NCBI GenBank assembly: GCA_947630135.1
Contig: CANRGH010000004.1
Coordinates: 62,001-126,000, forward strand
DNA: 64,000 nucleotides
Source: an uncultured Monoglobus sp.
Lineage (GTDB): Bacteria > Bacillota > Clostridia > Monoglobales > Monoglobaceae
Reading direction: 5' to 3'
A program made the translations under genes and the position numbers. The notes beneath the pieces are model-generated. The model was not told where the DNA came from and did no database searches. It was given only the letters and a program-made list of their open reading frames with translations. This document shows, piece by piece, positions 5,545 through 15,010 of this stretch. How positions within the stretch are numbered: position 1 is the stretch's first letter; the number at the start of each line of letters is the position of its first letter.

Positions 5545-6417
5545 CTAAATTGTATAATCTCCGCTTGTAAGTTTTGTGTATAATCCACTAATATCGAGCT
5601 TTTTATCAAGATATATCTCGTCTGCCAATATCGCCTGGCCGATGAGCATGCCGAGCCCGTTTATTATTTTATGCCCGCGCTTTTCGGCATATGCAAGAAA
5701 TTTTGTTTTCGGCGGGCTGTATATCAGATCGATCACCGCCGCGCGCGGATCAAGGCGGTCAATAAACGACAGATTTTCATAATCCGCTCCCACTCCGCTC
5801 ATGCCCAAAGGGGTGGCGTTTATCAGCACATCACACTCGGACGCGTATTTCGCGGCCTCGCCCGTCTCGCCCCAGGAAAGCTTGGTGCCGCCTTTCGCCG
5901 TTCCGCTCTTTTGAAGGCCGCGGATCTTTTCGCAGACCGCCTCCGCCTTTTCGGGGGTGCGGTTGAGGAGCGTTATTTTGCCCGCTCCCATATCGGAAAG
6001 CTTTAGGGCCAGCGTGGACACCACGCCGCCCGCTCCGAGAATGACGATGCTTTTGCCCGAAATGTCTACTCCGTTTTGCTCAAGCGACAGCACAAAGCCG
6101 CGCGCATCGGTGTTATAGCCGTAAAGCTCGCCGTCTTTTATGCTGACCGTGTTGACCGCGCCGAACAATTCGGCATCCTTGTCGATCTCCTTCAAAAACG
6201 GAATAATATCGACCTTGTGGGGCATGGTCAGATTAAAGCCGCGGACACCGCTTTTCACGGCGTTTTCCACATATTCCGAAAGCCCGCCCTTTTTCACAAG
6301 CACGCGGCTGTAGTCATTATCAACGCCGAGAGCGCCGAGCACCAGCCCGTGAACAACGGGCGACTTGCTGTGCTCGATCGGGTCACCTATCACGTTGAGT
6401 ATCAGCTTCTCACTCAT
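5545..6417 (-). CDS. aroE: Shikimate dehydrogenase
   Basis: NVIGDPIEHSKSPVVHG, NLTMPHK, GAGGVVSTLALKL, INATPLGM. Confidence 0.95.
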   Translation of the reverse strand: MSEKLILNVIGDPIEHSKSPVVHGLVLGALGVDNDYSRVLVKKGGLSEYVENAVKSGVRGFNLTMPHKVDIIPFLKEIDKDAELFGAVNTVSIKDGELYGYNTDARGFVLSLEQNGVDISGKSIVILGAGGVVSTLALKLSDMGAGKITLLNRTPEKAEAVCEKIRGLQKSGTAKGGTKLSWGETGEAAKYASECDVLINATPLGMSGVGADYENLSFIDRLDPRAAVIDLIYSPPKTKFLAYAEKRGHKIINGLGMLIGQAILADEIYLDKKLDISGLYTKLTSGDYTI

Positions 6418-6850
6418 CCGCCTTCACCTCGTTTAAAAGATAGTCGATCGCGAGCAGATAACCGCGAAGGCCCAGCCCGCATATCTGACCGACGCAGCCC
6501 GCGGCCGTCACCGATCTGCGGCGGAACTCCTCGCGCTTGTGAATGTTGCTGATGTGCACCTCGACCGCGGGCAGATCAACCGACTTGAGCGCGTCCAAAA
6601 TCGCGTAGCTGTAATGGGTGTATGCGCCCGGGTTTATCACAATTCCGTCGCAGCTTGTCAGCGCGTGGTGGATAAAGTCGATTATCTCGCCCTCGCCGTT
6701 GCTCTGGAGCACGATCGCCTCGGCTCCGCGCTCCGCGGCGTAGTCCTCGATCATCTTCTCAAGCTGCTGATAGCCGGTATTCCCGTAAATATCCGGCTCG
6801 CGGACCCCGAGCATATTAATATTCGGGCCGTTAATTACCATTATTTTCAT
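6410..6850 (-). CDS. aroQ: Type II 3-dehydroquinate dehydratase
   Basis: INGPNINMLGVREPDIYG, QSNGEGEIIDFIH, NPGAYTHYSYAI, EVHISNIHKREEFR. Confidence 0.95.
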   Translation of the reverse strand: MKIMVINGPNINMLGVREPDIYGNTGYQQLEKMIEDYAAERGAEAIVLQSNGEGEIIDFIHHALTSCDGIVINPGAYTHYSYAILDALKSVDLPAVEVHISNIHKREEFRRRSVTAAGCVGQICGLGLRGYLLAIDYLLNEVKADE

Positions 6851-6865
6851 AATCCGTTACTCCTT

Positions 6866-7363
6866 TTAAATATTGTTTTTGATTAATCTTAATATCTCGC
6901 CGAGGGCGGAGGCGAAAGCGCCGTCGTTTATAACAAGGGCGTTCGCGGCTTTTCTGTACTTATCGTACCGCTCGCGATAAAGGGTTTTGAGCCGCTCCGC
7001 GTTGTCCTTGAGCAGCGGTCTGCCGGAGGTGTCAATATCCCCGGCAATAAGCTCAAGCGGACGGTCGATAAAAATAGCAAGCGCGCCCGACTTTTGCATT
7101 ATCCCGATATTTTCATCCCGCACGACTATGCCGCCGCCGGTTGAGATCACGCGGTTGTCCGCTTTGAGGCAGTCACGCAGCACCCCGGTCTCGATATTCC
7201 GGAACGCGTCCTCGCCGCGGCCCGCGAAAATCTCGGGTATCGGCCCCTCGCGCCGCTCGATCTCGGCGTCGGTGTCGATAAACTCAAGGCCTAAATTTTC
7301 CGCCGCGGCCCTGCCGAAAGCCGACTTGCCGCAGCCCGGCATTCCGATAAGCAAAACGTTCAT
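6866..7363 (-). CDS. aroK: Shikimate kinase
   Basis: LIGMPGCGKSAFGRAAAENLGLEFIDTDAEIE; STGGGIV; SGRPLL. Confidence 0.93.
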   Translation of the reverse strand: MNVLLIGMPGCGKSAFGRAAAENLGLEFIDTDAEIERREGPIPEIFAGRGEDAFRNIETGVLRDCLKADNRVISTGGGIVVRDENIGIMQKSGALAIFIDRPLELIAGDIDTSGRPLLKDNAERLKTLYRERYDKYRKAANALVINDGAFASALGEILRLIKNNI

Positions 7364-7367
7364 ATTC

Positions 7368-8516
7368 CTACTCCTTAAGCTTATAATTTCCGAGCAGCTT
7401 AAACTCGCCCGTGCCCTCGATAACGTTGTTTGTCACGCGGCGCACCCGCTCGTCAAGCAGGTTTCCGCTGTAATCTACAAAAAACATATACTCAAAATTG
7501 CGGTCATAGAGCGGCCGCGACTCAAGCTTCAGAAGGTTCAGATTGCCCCTCGCGAAGCAGGCGAGAATTCTGTGCAGCTCGCCGCTTTTGTGCGGCAGTG
7601 TGAATGCCGCGCTTATCTTGTCACTTTTCTCGTTAAGCTCCAGATTTTTCGATACGATTATAAACCTTGTGGTGTTTTTAGCGCTGTTGTTGATATCGGC
7701 CGCCAGAACCTCAAGGCCGTAGATCTCGGCGTTCTGCCGTCCCGCTATGGCGGCCTTTGTTATGTCTTTGTCATCCGCCACCTTCTGCGCGCTCTGCGAG
7801 GTGCTGTAATACTCCTTAAGCTCCACCTCGCCGAGCGTCTTTAAAAACTCACGGCTCTGCATTATTCCCTGCTCGTGGGAATATACCGTCTTTATGTCCG
7901 AAAGCCTCGCTCCGGGAACTCCGAGCAGGCAGTGGCGTATGGGCACGTCAACCTCGCCGGTGATAAAATATCCGTATTTTGCCAAAAGGTCGATCACGTC
8001 GGCTATCGTGCCGGTATATGAATTCTCAATCGGCAGCACCGCGTAATCCGCATTGCCTTTTTCAAGCTCCGCGAAGGCGTCGTCAAAGGCGGCCACGTTA
8101 TAGCGGTCCGAGTCGTTGCCGAAGTATTTTATGGCCGCCTGCTCGGTATACGAGCCCTCAGCGCCGTAAAACACGACCCGCGGATCGCTCACCGCGGGCT
8201 TGGGGTCAAGCATATCCTCGACCAGCGCACGGTTAAAACCGACCAGCTCCTTTGTCTGCCTCTCGCGGCTGATCGACATGATCGCCGCGTAAAATTCATA
8301 AACCTCGTTCTGTTTTTTCTTGTCCTCGACCAGAGCCATTTTGCTCTCGAGCACCTGCTTTTCACGCTCGGAGTCGAGCACGGGCTTTCCGACGCTGCGC
8401 TTGTAGTCGGCGACTCCGCTGCTCAGCTCCATGCGCCGCAGAAACAGCGGCAGCAGCTCTTTGTCAATTCTGTCGATCTCCGCCCGAAGCTCGTCGAGCT
8501 TATTCTTGTTTTTCAT
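7368..8516 (-). CDS. pheA: Bifunctional chorismate mutase / prephenate dehydratase
   Basis: N-terminal chorismate mutase (LDELRAEIDRIDKELLPLFLRRMELS) followed by PDT (FYGAEGSYTEQAA, ENSYTGTI, NTTRFIIVSK, ACT region ESRPL). Confidence 0.93.
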   Translation of the reverse strand: MKNKNKLDELRAEIDRIDKELLPLFLRRMELSSGVADYKRSVGKPVLDSEREKQVLESKMALVEDKKKQNEVYEFYAAIMSISRERQTKELVGFNRALVEDMLDPKPAVSDPRVVFYGAEGSYTEQAAIKYFGNDSDRYNVAAFDDAFAELEKGNADYAVLPIENSYTGTIADVIDLLAKYGYFITGEVDVPIRHCLLGVPGARLSDIKTVYSHEQGIMQSREFLKTLGEVELKEYYSTSQSAQKVADDKDITKAAIAGRQNAEIYGLEVLAADINNSAKNTTRFIIVSKNLELNEKSDKISAAFTLPHKSGELHRILACFARGNLNLLKLESRPLYDRNFEYMFFVDYSGNLLDERVRRVTNNVIEGTGEFKLLGNYKLKE

Positions 8517-8529
8517 TTTATTTCACATC

Positions 8530-9603
8530 CTAAAATTTATCGTAAAGCAGGTCCAGCGCCGCGGCAGCCGCCGCGTTCTCGATAACCACGGTCCCGCGAT
8601 GAACTATGCACGGGTCGTGCCTGCCGTGAATTTCGATCTCGGTATTCTCCATTTTTTCAATATCGACCGTCCGCTGCTTTTTGGCGATCGACGGCGTCGG
8701 CTTGAGCACGGCGCGGAACAGCACAGGCATTCCGTTGGTTATCCCGCCGTTTATGCCGCCGTTGTTGTTGGTGTAGGTTTTAACGGCGCCGTTTTCAACA
8801 TAAAATTCGTCGTTCGCCTCGCTGCCCCGCATTGACGCGAAATCCGCGCCCGCGCCGAACATAACGGCCTTGACCGCAGGCACCGAGTACAGCATGGCCG
8901 ACAAGCGGCTCTCGACCGAGCCGAAAAACGGCTCGCCCTTGCCCGGAGGCATGCCGACTATCGCGCACTCCGCGATCCCGCCGACCGAGTCCTTATCGTT
9001 CTTGGCCCCGAGTATCCGCTCCTTCATCAGCCCGCCCTTTTCGTCGTCAATGACCGGGAAGTCCTTTTTTGAAATATTCAAAAGCTCGTCCGCGGCGACG
9101 TTCACAGGATCAAACGCGCTGTCCGCCACGTCAGCGATCTTAAGAATATGCGCGCCGACAAAAACGCCCTCTTTTTCCAGAACCTGCTTCGCCACGGCTC
9201 CCGCGAACACCAGCGGCGCGGTGATCCTCGCCGAAAAGTGTCCGCCGCCGCGGTAGTCACGGTTCTCGCCGTATTTCATATAGGCGGTGTAATCCGCGTG
9301 GCCGGGGCGCATAAGGTCCTTGTCATAATGCTTTGATATGGTGTTGGTGTTTCTGATGACTCCGGCTATCGGAGTTCCGGTCGTCATTCCGTTCACAAAA
9401 CCCGACAATATCTCAACCTTGTCCGCCTCTTTGCGGGAAGTCGAAATATTACTCCTTCCGGGCGCGCGCCGTTTCATTTCCGCCTCGATCCTGTCAATAT
9501 CGAGCTTTATTCCGCCGGGCAGGCCGTCGATAACTATTCCTATGCCCTGCCCGTGAGACTCGCCGAATATGCTCAGTCTGATATTTCTGCCGAAAGTGTT
9601 CAT
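8530..9603 (-). CDS. aroC: Chorismate synthase
   Basis: LSIFGESHGQGIGIVIDGLPGG, RAPGRSNISTSRKEAD, RDYRGGGHFSARITAP. Confidence 0.95.
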   Translation of the reverse strand: MNTFGRNIRLSIFGESHGQGIGIVIDGLPGGIKLDIDRIEAEMKRRAPGRSNISTSRKEADKVEILSGFVNGMTTGTPIAGVIRNTNTISKHYDKDLMRPGHADYTAYMKYGENRDYRGGGHFSARITAPLVFAGAVAKQVLEKEGVFVGAHILKIADVADSAFDPVNVAADELLNISKKDFPVIDDEKGGLMKERILGAKNDKDSVGGIAECAIVGMPPGKGEPFFGSVESRLSAMLYSVPAVKAVMFGAGADFASMRGSEANDEFYVENGAVKTYTNNNGGINGGITNGMPVLFRAVLKPTPSIAKKQRTVDIEKMENTEIEIHGRHDPCIVHRGTVVIENAAAAAALDLLYDKF

Positions 9604-9615
9604 AATCTCCTCCGA

Positions 9616-10896
9616 TCAAACAAGTCTGTCATATACCTTAAAGAAGTCGGGATACGACTTCCTGACCGCCCGCTCCGCGCCGGTTATGCTTACCTCGCCC
9701 TCCGAGCGGCAGGCGGCGATCGCTATCGCCATCGCGATGCGGTGATCGTTCCACGACGAGCAAACGTTGCTCTCAAGCAGGTCGCGGCCGCGGATAACAA
9801 GCCCGTCGGCCGTCTCGCGTATGTCAACACCGAGCCGCGAAAGCTCGGTCGAGATCGCCTTGAGCCGGTCGCTTTCCTTAAGCCTGAGCCGCCCGGCGCC
9901 CGTTATCCGGCTCTCGCCGTTTAAAAACGAGCACAGCACCGCCGCCGCCGGAACCAGATCGGGTATGTCGCGGGCGTCGATCGTGATAGCGTGCATGACC
10001 GCGGTCTTTTTCGCCATAATTCCGCCGTTGGGGCCTTTGACCACCCGTCCGCCGGCGCTCTTGATTATGTCGATTATCGCGCGGTCGCCCTGAAGGCTGT
10101 CGGGATTTAGGTTCATGCACTCAACGTTGCAGCCGATAGCGTCAGCAACAAGAAAGAAGGCCGCCTGCGAATAGTCCGCCTCAACCTTAAGGTCGCCGCA
10201 GCTTTTGTATTTCTGACCGCCCTTTATGCGGAACAGCTTGTATTTATGGTTCTCGATCGCGATCCCGAATTTTTTCAAAATATCTATGGTCAGGTCGATA
10301 TAGCCCTTGCTCTCGCACTCGCCGGACACCAAAATCTCGCTGTCGCCCTCAAGCATCGGCAGCGCGAAAAGCAGCCCCGTGATAAACTGCGAGCTGACGT
10401 TGCCCGCAAGACCGTAGCTTCCGCTCTCAAGCTTTCCGTCGAGTATGATATAGTCCTCGCCCGTCTTGACCTTTATTCCCTTTTCGCGGAAGATATTGAA
10501 GTAGGGCGCCTGGGGCCGCTTCATCAGCCGTCCGCGGCCGACAAACTTGACTGGAACGCCCCTGCCGAGCGCCAGCGGCATCAAAAACCGCAGGGTCGAG
10601 CCGCTCTCGAAGCAGTCGAGAGTTATCATGTTTTTGACCTTATATGTCTTTTTGCCCGATATGCTGACCGTCATGCTCTTGGTGTTGACTCTGCATTTTG
10701 CGCCAAGGGCCCTCATGCAGCCCACCGTCGCGGTTATGTCGTCCGACATCACGACGTTTTCGATCACGCAGTCCTCGCCGCTGAGCGCCGCCGCAATTAT
10801 CGCGCGGTGCGCGACGCTTTTTGACGGCGGCACCGACACGGTTCCCCGAAGCATGCCGGGATGTATCAATTTAATATCTTCCATAATGCCCTCCAA
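9616..10896 (-). CDS. aroA: 3-phosphoshikimate 1-carboxyvinyltransferase (EPSP synthase)
   Basis: VPPSKSVAHRAIIAAALS, FESGSTLRFLMPLAL, RLRLKESDRLKAISTEL, WNDHRIAMAIAIAA. Confidence 0.95.
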   Translation of the reverse strand: MEGIMEDIKLIHPGMLRGTVSVPPSKSVAHRAIIAAALSGEDCVIENVVMSDDITATVGCMRALGAKCRVNTKSMTVSISGKKTYKVKNMITLDCFESGSTLRFLMPLALGRGVPVKFVGRGRLMKRPQAPYFNIFREKGIKVKTGEDYIILDGKLESGSYGLAGNVSSQFITGLLFALPMLEGDSEILVSGECESKGYIDLTIDILKKFGIAIENHKYKLFRIKGGQKYKSCGDLKVEADYSQAAFFLVADAIGCNVECMNLNPDSLQGDRAIIDIIKSAGGRVVKGPNGGIMAKKTAVMHAITIDARDIPDLVPAAAVLCSFLNGESRITGAGRLRLKESDRLKAISTELSRLGVDIRETADGLVIRGRDLLESNVCSSWNDHRIAMAIAIAACRSEGEVSITGAERAVRKSYPDFFKVYDRLV

Positions 10897-10911
10897 CTGA
10901 AACAGTATATA

Positions 10912-11967
10912 TTAAATATTGAGAAATTCGTCCTTTTTGAATTTTTTTATGAGCACGTCGCCAATATCATTCAGCAGTATCAGATTTATATCGGCGCCCT
11001 CGCCCTTTTTGTCAACGGCGGCCGCGTCGCCGAGCTGCTGTTTGCTTATTTCAACATATGTGGGCAGATCGTAGTTTTCAAGAATTTTTATCATTCTTTC
11101 CGCGGTCCCCGCGGGGGTCAGCCCCAAACGCTCTCCATACTCGCAGGCCATCCGCATTCCCACTCCCACGGCCTCGCCGTGTGTATATGTCTCATAGTTA
11201 TACTGCTTTTCGATCGCGTGCCCGAAGGTGTGGCCGAAGTTTAGTATCATGCGTCCGCCCTTGTCGAACTCGTCCTCCTCCACCACCTGTCTTTTTATAT
11301 CACAACAATTATATACTATTTTATCAATATTTGCAAACAATTCTTTTGTATTTTTTATACTTTCCAGAAGCTCAAACAGATTTTTGTCTTTTATGGCCCC
11401 GTATTTGATGACTTCGGCCATTCCGTCGCTCAAAACGCGCGGCTCCAGCGTTTTTAAGCACTCTATGTCAATTATGACGACTTTGGGCTGATTGAACGCT
11501 CCCACAAGGTTTTTGCCGCGAGGCAGATCAATCGCCACCTTGCCGCCCACGCTGGAGTCCACCTGCGCCAGCAGTGTTGTCGGGATCTGAACATAAGGCA
11601 CGCCGCGCAAAAGGCTCGCCGCCGCGTAGCCCGTCAGGTCGCCGACGACTCCGCCGCCCAACGCTATGATCAGATCGGAACGCGTCAGCCCGAACGAAAG
11701 CATTCTGTCGTAAAGCTCAAACAGATATTTCTCACACTTGGTCTTTTCGCCGGCCGGAACCGTTATGAGCTCGGTCTTAAATCCCGCCGCTTCAAGGCTG
11801 CCCGTCACGGTACCACCGTAAAGCGGGCCCACGTTTGAGTCGGTCACGACCGCTATTTTCTCGCCGCCGAACACCTCTTTGATATATTCCGCCGCGTTCT
11901 TTAAAATATCGCGGCCGATCAATATGTCATATTCTCTTCCCGGAATGTTAACTCTGAGTTTTTCCAT
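10912..11967 (-). CDS. aroB: 3-dehydroquinate synthase (start adjusted to MEKLRVNIPG)
   Basis: ALGGGVVGDLTGYAAASLLRGVPYVQIPTTLLAQVDSSVGGKVAIDLPRGKNLVGAF; ILNFGHTFGHAIE. Confidence 0.95.
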   Translation of the reverse strand: MEKLRVNIPGREYDILIGRDILKNAAEYIKEVFGGEKIAVVTDSNVGPLYGGTVTGSLEAAGFKTELITVPAGEKTKCEKYLFELYDRMLSFGLTRSDLIIALGGGVVGDLTGYAAASLLRGVPYVQIPTTLLAQVDSSVGGKVAIDLPRGKNLVGAFNQPKVVIIDIECLKTLEPRVLSDGMAEVIKYGAIKDKNLFELLESIKNTKELFANIDKIVYNCCDIKRQVVEEDEFDKGGRMILNFGHTFGHAIEKQYNYETYTHGEAVGVGMRMACEYGERLGLTPAGTAERMIKILENYDLPTYVEISKQQLGDAAAVDKKGEGADINLILLNDIGDVLIKKFKKDEFLNI

Positions 11968-11968
11968 A

Positions 11969-12841
11969 TTATTCAGGCTCCTTTTCCTGCATGGTGATTT
12001 TGTTTTCGCAAACGGTATCGAGCAGCCTTTCAAGGCCTTCTCTGTCGCCGCTCTTCACAAGCTCCCGTATCCTGCCGAGGCTCGCGCTTAGGCGGTCTAT
12101 CTCGCTTATCACGTTGTCCTTGTTTGATATGAACAGAGAGCTCCACAGCTCGCCGTTTATCCGCGCCACCCTCGTGCAGTCGCGGAACGCTCCCGCGGTG
12201 TAGGCGCGGTTCATCTCCTTCGGATAATCAAGGCACAGGGCCGAGGCCGCCACATGCATGAGATCGCTGGTATAGGCGATCACGCGGTCGTGCTCCTCGG
12301 GACCTGCCACAGCGATCCGCGTCGCGCCGATATATTTCGCCATTTCGCGGATAAGCTCAACGCTTTCCGGCTTTGAGCTCTCGACGGGAGTTATGATGAA
12401 CCCGCTCATCCAGAACAGCTCGGACGACGCGTTTTCAAAACCGTCAACCTCCTTGCCCGCCATCGGGTGGCCGCCGACATAATCGACGTTGTCGGGCAGG
12501 GCTGCCGGTATCTGTTTTGAGACTCTGCTCTTTACGCCGCAAACGTCCGACACGACCGCGCCGGGCTTGAAGCGGCTTTTGTTCTCCTCGATAAGCTTCC
12601 CTATAATGTCGGGATAGGTGCAGAACACCACAAGATCCGCGCCGTCAATTGCGTCGCCCGCGTTGTCATACGCGGCGCTCACCGCCTTGTTTTTGATCGC
12701 GGCCGCGCGGGTCGCGGGATCAATGTCGCAGCCCGCGATCCCGGCCTTTTTAAAGCCTCTCAGCGCGTAGGCCAGCGAGCCTCCGATAAGTCCCAGGCCG
12801 ATCACCGCGATCTTAAAACCACTTTCCATTTTTATCACCAA
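11969..12841 (-). CDS. tyrA: Prephenate dehydrogenase
   Basis: IAVIGLGLIGGSLAYALRG; VDYVGGHPMAGKEVDGFENAS. Confidence 0.93.
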   Translation of the reverse strand: MVIKMESGFKIAVIGLGLIGGSLAYALRGFKKAGIAGCDIDPATRAAAIKNKAVSAAYDNAGDAIDGADLVVFCTYPDIIGKLIEENKSRFKPGAVVSDVCGVKSRVSKQIPAALPDNVDYVGGHPMAGKEVDGFENASSELFWMSGFIITPVESSKPESVELIREMAKYIGATRIAVAGPEEHDRVIAYTSDLMHVAASALCLDYPKEMNRAYTAGAFRDCTRVARINGELWSSLFISNKDNVISEIDRLSASLGRIRELVKSGDREGLERLLDTVCENKITMQEKEPE

Positions 12842-12844
12842 ATT

Positions 12845-13864
12845 TTACACAATTTCTTTGTCAACATGCTTACCTATGGCGCGCATCTTTTTCATCAGAC
12901 TGTCGAACTGACTCTCGTTCAGCGACTGGGCGCCGTCGCACCACGCCTTGGCGGGGTTGTTGTGGACCTCGACGATAAGACCGTCGGCTCCCACCGCCAT
13001 CGCCGCAAGCGACAGCGGCTCCACCATCCAGCTCATGCCCGCCGAGTGCGACGGGTCAACGATCACCGGCAGATGGCTCAGGCGCTTGACCGCGGGAATG
13101 GCGCTCAAATCGAGCGTGTTGCGCGTGTATGTCTCAAACGTTCTTATTCCGCGCTCGCACAGAATGACGTTGGGGTTGCCCTCGGCCAGAATATACTCGG
13201 CGCTCATCAGCCACTCCTCGATCGTCGCCGAAAGTCCGCGCTTTAAGAGAATGGGCTTTGAGGTTTTTCCCAACTCCTTGAGCAGATCAAAATTCTGCAT
13301 GTTTCTCGCGCCCACCTGAATTATGTCAACATCCTTTTCAAAAACCTCAACCATTTTTGGCGACATGATCTCGGTCACTATCGGAAGGCCGGTCTTTTCC
13401 CTCGCCTCCTTCAGCAGGCGCAGGCCCTCGAGCTCAAGCCCTTGGAACGAGTAAGGCGAGGTCCTCGGCTTGAACGCGCCGCCGCGGAGCAGCGCCGCGC
13501 CGCTATTTTTCACGCTTTCGGCCACATGGATTATCTGCTCCTCGGTCTCGACGCTGCACGGGCCGGCGATAACCGTGAACGTGCCCTCCTTGCCGATCTC
13601 TGCGCCTCCGACCTTCACGATCGTCGGCTCGGGGTGGAACTTGCGGCTGGCCTTTTTGAAAGGCTCCGCTATCCTCATCACGCGGTCAACGTGAACGTTG
13701 AGCATCAGCGTGTCGGGATCGATGCGGCTGGTGTCGCCCAAAAGGCCCAGAACGGTGCAGTCAACGCCCTTGTTGACCATTACGTCAAGGCCCATGTCCT
13801 CAACGTAGGATATGATTTTTGTTACGTCTTCCTCGCTTGTTTTCGGTTTTAAGATTACTACCAT
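12845..13864 (-). CDS. aroF: 3-deoxy-7-phosphoheptulonate synthase, type I-beta with N-terminal ferredoxin-like domain
   Basis: FTVIAGPCSVETEEQI, LRGGAFKPRTSPYSFQGL, DIIQVGARNMQNFDLL, VIVDPSHSAG; SD AGGAGG upstream. Confidence 0.95.
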   Translation of the reverse strand: MVVILKPKTSEEDVTKIISYVEDMGLDVMVNKGVDCTVLGLLGDTSRIDPDTLMLNVHVDRVMRIAEPFKKASRKFHPEPTIVKVGGAEIGKEGTFTVIAGPCSVETEEQIIHVAESVKNSGAALLRGGAFKPRTSPYSFQGLELEGLRLLKEAREKTGLPIVTEIMSPKMVEVFEKDVDIIQVGARNMQNFDLLKELGKTSKPILLKRGLSATIEEWLMSAEYILAEGNPNVILCERGIRTFETYTRNTLDLSAIPAVKRLSHLPVIVDPSHSAGMSWMVEPLSLAAMAVGADGLIVEVHNNPAKAWCDGAQSLNESQFDSLMKKMRAIGKHVDKEIV

Positions 13865-13896: not shown

Positions 13897-13923
13897 AAAA
13901 AGGACGAGCGCAAAGCCCGTCCT
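13897..13923 (-). terminator. Intrinsic terminator of the Phe/Tyr attenuator
   Basis: Minus strand AGGACGGGCTTTGCGCTCGTCCTTTTT: 9-bp stem then T-run, between leader peptide and aroF. Confidence 0.85.
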
Positions 13924-13956
13924 TGAATAATTTTCAAAGTTTTATGCCGTTAAAAA

Positions 13957-14082
13957 TTAGGAGCATAAGCGGGCTTTACCTGAATTGTCGCACGGAAAAT
14001 AACCAAAGCTAAAGTAAAAGCTCCGGGTAAAAGAATAATATTCTGCTGTCATGTTAACATTTCCGCGCAGCAAACTACTCAT
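13957..14082 (-). CDS. Phe/Tyr-rich leader peptide MSSLLRGNVNMTAEYYSFTRSFYFSFGYFPCDNSGKARLCS (41 aa), not in supplied ORF track
   Basis: ATG with SD AAGGAG at 14094-14089 (6-nt spacing); 5 Phe + 4 Tyr in residues 15-29; followed by antiterminator/terminator and aroF. Confidence 0.88.
   Translation of the reverse strand: MSSLLRGNVNMTAEYYSFTRSFYFSFGYFPCDNSGKARLCS
13960..14024 (-). promoter_or_regulatory. Attenuator protector/antiterminator segments
   Basis: Minus strand GGAGC(14024-14020)..TTTAC(14018-14014) can pair with GTAAA(13979-13975)..GCTCC(13964-13960); AAAGCCCG(13977-13970) is the exact complement of CGGGCTTT(13919-13912) in the terminator 5' arm. Confidence 0.75.
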
Positions 14083-14121
14083 TTTTGACTCCTTATACAT
14101 AAATTTAAAACACTGTCAGAT

Positions 14122-14150
14122 ATTATACAACATTATAAAATAAATTGCAA
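14122..14150 (-). promoter_or_regulatory. SigmaA-type promoter of the aromatic operon
   Basis: Minus strand TTGCAA - 17 nt - TATAAT; predicted start about 30 nt upstream of leader ATG. Confidence 0.8.
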
Positions 14151-14167: not shown

Positions 14168-15010
14168 TTATAATATTTTTGTCAAATGCCTTGTGACGTG
14201 GCAGCTTATGTTGACGGCGCAGGGCATTCCCGCGATGTGCGTCGGGAACGTCTCAACGTTGACGCCGAGCGCTGTGGTCCTGCCGCCGAAGCCCTGTGGG
14301 CCTATTCCGCTTTTGTTGATTTTCTCAAGCAGGGTCTTTTCAAGCTCCGCGTAGTACGGGTCGGGATTTTCGGAATTCACCTCGCGGAGCAGCGCCTGCT
14401 TTGCCAATATCGCGGCCTTTTCAAACGAGCCGCCGATGCCGACGCCCACAACGATCGGCGGGCAGGGGTTGCTGCCCGCGTCCTGCGCGGTCTTTACCAC
14501 AAAGTCGATTATTCCCTCAAGTCCTTCGGACGGCTTGAGCATTTTTATCGCGCTCATGTTCTCGCTTCCGAAGCCCTTGGGCGCGATCGTGATCTCAATA
14601 TTCTCGCCGTCCGTGATCTCGGTGTGGATTATCGCGGGCGTGTTGTCGCCCGTGTTGCCGCGGCGCACCGGATCAGCAACCACCGACTTGCGCAGATAGC
14701 CGCTCTCGTATCCGCGGCGCACGCCCTCGTTTATCGCGTCGTTAAACGAGCCGCCGGTTATGTGAACGTCCTGGCCGAGCTTCACAAAGAACACGGCCAT
14801 GCCGGTGTCCTGACAGATCGGAAGCTCCTCCTCTGCCGCGATGTCGGCGTTTTTGAGGATGTTTTCAAGAACATCCCTCGCCGTGCCGTTTGTCTCGCTC
14901 TCAAGGCCGCTCTCAAGGGCGGCCCTGATGTCGGGATTTAAGCGGCAGTTCGCCTCGACGCACATTTGCGCCACGGTATCGGTGATCAGTTTTGTGTCTA
15001 TTTCTCTCAT
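14168..15010 (-). CDS. Class I fumarate hydratase / L(+)-tartrate dehydratase alpha subunit
   Basis: CQDTGMAVFFVKLG, NPCPPIVVGVGIGGSFEKAAILAKQALLRE, TTALGVNVETFPTHIAGMPCAVNISCHVTRH. Confidence 0.9.
   Translation of the reverse strand: MREIDTKLITDTVAQMCVEANCRLNPDIRAALESGLESETNGTARDVLENILKNADIAAEEELPICQDTGMAVFFVKLGQDVHITGGSFNDAINEGVRRGYESGYLRKSVVADPVRRGNTGDNTPAIIHTEITDGENIEITIAPKGFGSENMSAIKMLKPSEGLEGIIDFVVKTAQDAGSNPCPPIVVGVGIGGSFEKAAILAKQALLREVNSENPDPYYAELEKTLLEKINKSGIGPQGFGGRTTALGVNVETFPTHIAGMPCAVNISCHVTRHLTKIL

Follow-up and report, generated by a model that had tools for sequence, protein, structure and literature searches.

T-boxes and TRAP dominate the usual account of how Gram-positive bacteria regulate the synthesis of aromatic amino acids. 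In Escherichia coli, the pheA, pheST and trp leaders consist of a short ORF rich in cognate codons, a terminator, a mutually exclusive antiterminator and cognate biosynthetic genes downstream, and the same components are found in the Monoglobus leader analyzed here. Leader-peptide attenuators have also been documented for hisZ/hisS* in bacilli (PMC2965389), for his operons in the Firmicutes (PMC9413887) and for ilv-leu of Staphylococcus aureus (PMC5794164). For aroF itself, two predicted leaders are on record. The uORFC-13-1 motif, a predicted aroF leader described solely from Acholeplasma and from environmental sequences without taxonomic assignment, has one or more Phe residues in a U run (PMC8632094), and in Corynebacterium glutamicum a leader peptide containing Phe-Tyr-Phe has been predicted before the aroF gene for DAHP synthase (PMC4046766).

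Leader ORF, operon and genomic setting

The window, a stretch of 64,000 nt, is part of contig 4 of a 2.35 Mb genome (99.5% complete). The nearest records come from uncultured Monoglobus genomes, with related loci in, among others, Ructibacterium gallinarum DSM 107454 and Candidatus Monoglobus merdigallinarum. The leader system lies on the minus strand (14150-13897), between a fumarate hydratase gene ending at 14168 and a nine-gene aro/tyrA/pheA operon (Table 1). The preliminary description had reported a TTGCAA-17-TATAAT promoter, an AAGGAG Shine-Dalgarno sequence and a 41-aa ORF with 5 Phe and 4 Tyr in 15 residues and no Trp, followed by a complete nine-gene aromatic operon, and all of this is borne out: the Phe and Tyr residues fall within positions 15-29 of the ORF, from which Trp is absent, and NCBIfam identifies the genes as aroF, tyrA, aroB, aroA, aroC, pheA, aroK, aroQ and aroE, in that order and with tight spacings of -65 to +15 nt. 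This order behind the leader is unchanged in every relative with sufficiently long sequence. In L003, L004 and L005, about 0.8 kb of additional DNA is present between aroK and aroQ with respect to the window and the other relatives. A 73-nt segment, L002 (G000:C15:18876-18947), matches the fumarate hydratase gene end and the promoter region of aroF at 76% identity, a resemblance that probably reflects chance similarity of AT-rich DNA.

Most relatives share the TTGCAA-17-TATAAT promoter or a near variant, and an SD-like sequence precedes the leader ATG in them as well. Dinucleotide shuffling of the 301-nt intergenic region produces an SD-preceded ORF equally rich in Phe and Tyr only once in 3000 shuffles. 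Within the family, leader residues S21, F22 and G27 are invariant and Y28 and F29 almost so. The pN/pS ratio of the family leaders is 0.50 in frame, 1.89 in frame +1 and 0.44 in frame +2, and the last of these values means that pN/pS alone cannot pick out the leader reading frame.

Table 1. Features of the aroF leader and its operon, in window coordinates.
Feature	Position	Strand	Evidence
-35 element TTGCAA	14145..14150	-	sequence; sigma-70-type match
-10 element TATAAT, spacer 17 nt	14122..14127	-	sequence; sigma-70-type match
Shine-Dalgarno AAGGAG of leader ORF	14089..14094	-	sequence
Leader ORF MSSLLRGNVNMTAEYYSFTRSFYFSFGYFPCDNSGKARLCS, 41 codons + stop, ATG start, TAA stop	13957..14082	-	sequence; conserved
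Sensor hairpin CCGGAGCU-UUUACUUU-AGCUUUGG, within Phe/Tyr codons	14003..14026	-	predicted fold, -9.5 kcal/mol, z -3.9
Region 2, antiterminator 5' arm GUAAAGCCCG, ORF codons 35-38	13970..13979	-	pairing, covariation, ribosome model
Internal hairpin a, antiterminator three-way junction	13942..13968	-	predicted fold
Internal hairpin b, antiterminator junction (CUUUGA..UUCAAGG)	13921..13939	-	predicted fold
Region 3 (CGGGCUUUGC), antiterminator 3' arm; overlaps terminator 5' arm and loop	13910..13919	-	pairing, covariation
Intrinsic terminator AAGGACGGGC-UUUGC-GCUCGUCCUU at 13924-13900, U tract to 13897	13897..13924	-	fold, conservation
aroF, DAHP synthase (NF006421/TIGR01361), first gene of operon	12845..13864	-	NCBIfam; ATG at 13864
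tyrA, aroB, aroA, aroC, pheA (chorismate mutase-prephenate dehydratase), aroK, aroQ, aroE	5545..12841	-	NCBIfam

The proposed switch and its operation

Region 2 had been described as an exact complement to the 5' arm of an intrinsic terminator with aroF following, and sequence, folding and covariation agree on this arrangement. The resulting antiterminator helix (2:3) measures 10 bp here and is mutually exclusive with the terminator (3:4). Folded alone, the terminator reaches -15.5 kcal/mol (z -5.2), while the antiterminator (13979-13910) folds at -24.1 kcal/mol (z -4.8) into a three-way junction that includes two small internal hairpins; the 236-nt whole leader has a folding z of -4.2. The aroF gene could be located in 40 of the 51 genomes of the order, and an SD-preceded Phe/Tyr-rich ORF (9-12 Phe/Tyr per 16 residues) lies upstream of it in 28 Monoglobaceae loci, each of these leaders (28/28) having an intrinsic terminator 19-41 nt past the ORF stop. 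No Phe/Tyr leader was found upstream of aroF in the other families of the order or in g3 of the Monoglobaceae. In each of the 27 other family aroF regions with a leader, the Phe/Tyr ORF has been preserved together with the terminator and its mutually exclusive antiterminator across numerous compensatory changes, and the expectation that an alignment across related genomes would recover both Phe/Tyr richness and pairing is hence upheld in the 28 family leaders.

The 2:3 duplex spans 9-14 bp in the family and 6 bp in its most distant member, L067. Its sequence differs from clade to clade while pairing is retained, as in the types GUAAAGCCCG/CGGGCUUUGC, AUAAAGCUCGC/GCGAGCUUU, CCUUUGAGCC/GGUUCAGAGG, GGUAUAAUGAGCU/GAGCUCGUUAUAC, AUAAAGCUCGCUUG/AAGGCGAGCUUUGG and GGUAUAAUGAGCUG/GAGCUCGUUAUACU, a diversity for which the inheritance of a single type is an insufficient explanation. 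On average, the duplex reaches -16.5 kcal/mol when it is formed with a leader's own arm, as opposed to -10.9 kcal/mol with the arms of other leaders. Furthermore, both the 2:3 and the 3:4 helices display double-sided change at most positions among 21 distinct leaders, although these are related sequences and the cells do not represent independent events.

In a model that stops the fold where region 3 ends and moves a ribosome footprint along the leader codon by codon, the 2:3 helix of the window leader has a probability of 0.99 whenever a Phe/Tyr codon (the last being codon 29) occupies the A site, and of 0 from codon 33 onward, still 0 with the ribosome at the stop. Under this partial folding, the two alternative states envisaged in the preliminary description are thus recovered, and the location of region 2 at codons 35-38 of 42 implies that the ribosome would cover it directly. 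Most relatives match the window leader in this model, and about 5 of the 18 modeled deviate. Once the ribosome has reached the stop codon, the antiterminator could fold again in L037, L050, L052 and L054, which counts against the ideal model; L046, whose antiterminator is weak throughout, also departs from it. Equilibrium folding of the full leader, terminator included, was discarded as a means of separating the states with ribosome masks: the terminator almost always wins, at nearly every Phe/Tyr codon on which the ribosome is placed, implying that the switch would have to be kinetic, as in classical attenuation.

In the proposed mechanism, RNA polymerase would initiate at about 14115 and transcribe the leader, followed by a ribosome translating the 41-codon ORF. 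With ample Phe-tRNA and Tyr-tRNA, the ribosome would clear codons 15-29 and reach the stretch from codon 33 to the stop, where its footprint would lie on region 2; with region 2 covered, region 3 would be free, the terminator would form and the operon would be off. If either Phe-tRNA or Tyr-tRNA became scarce, an upstream stall would let region 2 pair with region 3 once the latter is made, precluding the terminator and allowing all nine genes to be transcribed. Ribosome stalling and the response to tRNA charging are those parts of the attenuation model that we infer. That the ORF, the terminator and the antiterminator are all conserved, with compensatory change, favors the trp/phe-type attenuation sensing Phe and Tyr originally put forward, as do the modeled placement of the sensor codons with respect to the switch and the lack of a T-box or other Rfam match at the locus. 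Taken as a whole, sequence and modeling indicate that the locus is very probably a ribosome-mediated attenuator of transcription that responds to charged tRNA-Phe and tRNA-Tyr and in which the ribosome appears to occlude region 2 directly.

The Phe/Tyr codons are themselves structured. They are interspersed with Ser (AGC), Gly (GGY) and other codons that allow them to pair with one another in a sensor hairpin, which takes the form UAGCU-U-UAGCU..GGCUA-C-GGCUA in Ructibacterium and CAGCC-U-UAGCU..AGCUA-C-GGUUA in the g7 genomes. The leader cores of the family (25/25) exceed the mean stability of their synonymous recodings, with a mean z of -2.26, and the register of the helix is kept in relatives, 89% of cells being paired against 13-49% with slid partners. 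Double-sided change is found at one pair of the sensor helix only, and covariation proper is therefore modest. In a class-wide synonymous-recoding test on 62 leaders, the mean z is -1.13, with 24 leaders below -1.5 and none above +1.5. The conservation of Ser and Gly in the leader peptide can hence be attributed to their codons building the sensor RNA hairpin, which accounts for conserved residues that sense nothing. By analogy with the trp 1:2 pause hairpin, its role is most likely to hold the polymerase until the ribosome comes, and such a pausing or synchronizing layout yields sharp predictions that are distinct from those of the trp model.

Phe/Tyr leaders in the Clostridia and other aromatic controls

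Of 392 Clostridia genomes searched with a leader-peptide profile, 42 gave matches, and 29 of these genomes lie outside the order, where the readable matches (L088 apart) adjoin genes for DAHP synthase of both types or for chorismate mutase/prephenate dehydratase directly downstream. In a sample of 100 aroF loci, drawn by aroF similarity alone from the class Clostridia outside the order so as to escape the bias of the profile search, a Phe/Tyr leader (an SD and at least 7 Phe/Tyr in 16 residues) is present in 63 loci and in 31 of the 41 families sampled, whereas the 100 reverse strands contain none and 300 shuffles yield 2. Of the 63 loci with a leader, 58 have a strong terminator no more than 200 nt from aroF, as against 13 of the 37 leaderless ones (p 2e-9), and the 2:3 duplex goes beyond shuffles at p<=0.05 in only 31 of 62 class-wide leaders, about 3 being expected by chance. 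Twelve further profile matches came from other classes of the phylum, and the readable ones (9/9) stand ahead of aroF or aroB. The aroF Phe/Tyr leader is widespread in the Clostridia, not a Monoglobus oddity; with 63% of the sampled Clostridia aroF loci carrying it, much of the gut microbiota would have a proteobacterial-style switch at the head of the shikimate pathway.

An [FY]FS.GYF.C.K motif recurs among the peptides of the class, and Phe/Tyr richness persists elsewhere in the class in quite different peptides such as that of L171 (e.g. MFKNIFAYAYYFYYYYFQNMKVRVVCA). In other families, L086, L093, L097, L094 and L235 carry Phe/Tyr leaders before genes for chorismate mutase/prephenate dehydratase or class Ia DAHP synthase, or before aroB. 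Judged by the genes that follow them, the Phe/Tyr leaders of other families constitute a putative regulon, not a single operon. The evidence is evenly poised on a broader proposition, in which the shikimate/Phe/Tyr pathway of the Clostridia and related classes of the phylum would have Phe/Tyr leader attenuation as a main and long-established control, operating through self-folding sensor codons (interleaved with Ser, Gly, Ala and Trp, and serving a pause or synchronizing function) and through occlusion of an arm within the ORF, with the operon on in the absence of translation.

The window genome uses other devices at other genes. T-box matches L025, L026 and L027 precede an SSS-family transporter gene, thrS and a trpB2-like gene, identities that were read from translations, and two of these matches are under the Rfam gathering score. 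The TRAP protein family PF02081 is also represented (G000:C11:44959-45153), and (U/G)AG triplets with two-base spacers, TRAP-site-like by eye, are found upstream of trpE in this genome (L108, G000:C12:626-1996:-) and in L103. A Trp-codon leader at trpE is not a consistent feature of the family, the window genome showing the TRAP-like (U/G)AG repeats at this position. In a g9 genome, trpE (L116) is preceded by a T-box-like AAGGTGGCACCGCGAG and then a terminator, whereas genomes of the window's own genus present TRAP-like repeats, an apparent switch of sensing system inside one family. The Trp branch thus appears to be handled separately from the aroF operon, which fits a leader without Trp codons, and the sequences suggest a division of labor in the window genome between TRAP and T-boxes (one of them at trpB2) and a leader peptide for the common pathway and Phe/Tyr. 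The generalization that Firmicutes mostly rely on T-boxes or TRAP for aromatic pathways hence holds for other genes of this genome, but not for aroF in the Clostridia at large, where Phe/Tyr leaders are common.

Alternative readings and relation to described systems

The AT-richness of the region and of Phe/Tyr codons, together with the gene end at 14168, could be taken to mean that the terminator merely ends fumarate hydratase transcription and that AT-rich DNA gave rise to the Phe/Tyr ORF incidentally. Some 240 nt and a promoter, however, separate the terminator from that gene, Phe/Tyr ORFs appear on 0 of 100 reverse strands, in 2 of 300 shuffles and in 1 of 3000 for the window region, and the leader is conserved and covaries. 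Since leader and terminator associate with aromatic genes across the class, this explanation is refuted for practical purposes, and its probability is negligible. Control by a T-box or metabolite riboswitch is just as improbable. T-boxes are usual in Firmicutes and occur at three other genes of the window genome, but no Rfam match attains its gathering score within the window, including those of the Rfam 15 leader families (Phe_leader, Trp_leader and others). The T-box covariance model (RF00230) has no match at aroF, its matches in this genome being located elsewhere, and the best matches at the locus with E<10 are to implausible families far under threshold, none of them sensible. A search of 20 leader loci of the family and class yielded no Rfam match save an unrelated tRNA, and neither a T-box nor any other Rfam match was obtained in 20 class loci, nearly all of them without a clear leader.

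Two further possibilities concern the way in which the leader would sense its signal. It is very unlikely that the leader peptide arrests in the exit tunnel in response to free Phe or Tyr, as TnaC does to Trp, instead of reporting charged tRNA through its codons. The invariance of S21 and G27, which are neither Phe nor Tyr, and the class-wide [FY]FS.GYF.C.K motif would be expected of an arrest peptide, but the sensor RNA hairpin explains the Ser and Gly codons, surpassing synonymous recodings in 25 of 25 family leaders and in the class average, and the peptide differs greatly elsewhere in the class (L171) while Phe/Tyr richness remains. Less easily dismissed, yet still on the unlikely side, is a trp-like 1:2 protector hairpin, in which a region 1 in the Phe/Tyr codons, and not direct occlusion by the ribosome, would sequester region 2. 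Upstream pairing of region 2 is possible in every leader (-14.7 kcal/mol in that of the window), region 2 is predicted to be paired upstream before region 3 is made with P 0.40 here and 0.09-0.85 overall, and UUAUCAGCC/GGGCUGAUA form a strong 1:2 stem in g7 leaders. The position of this pairing nevertheless varies from leader to leader. The GGAGC..TTTAC / GTAAA..GCTCC pairing invoked in the preliminary description is available in the window genome, but its GGAGC is not conserved, relatives having CACAGC or CAGAGC instead. Moreover, the free leader prefers 2:3 (0.99), and region 2 is within the ORF and hence under the ribosome. On the modeling, a 1:2 protector may contribute alongside direct occlusion.

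Among described systems, uORFC-13-1 resembles the Monoglobus leader in placing a uORF with one or more Phe codons directly before an intrinsic terminator and aroF, and attenuation has been proposed for it; the two differ, as far as a comparison by description goes, in that Tyr is unmentioned for uORFC-13-1 (PMC8632094). The window has no Rfam match of any kind. The predicted aroF leader of C. glutamicum belongs to the Actinobacteria, with three Phe/Tyr residues named and aroF as the sole downstream gene named (PMC4046766). The hisZ/hisS*, his and ilv-leu attenuators of Firmicutes likewise replace a T-box, but they involve different amino acids and genes from those of the aroF leader (PMC2965389, PMC9413887, PMC5794164). 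A prior report of class-wide Phe/Tyr leaders in the Clostridia was not found in the open-access literature; subscription literature was outside the scope of the search, and priority is not claimed. The attenuation mechanism is known, and what is new here is its breadth and its layout, with region 2 inside the ORF and sensor codons that pair with themselves. Set against the generally known anatomy of the trp and phe leaders, that is, of E. coli pheA/pheST and trp, the Monoglobus leader differs in sensing two amino acids jointly, in having region 2 within the ORF, in the self-pairing of its sensor codons, and in controlling the whole shikimate pathway together with both terminal branches.
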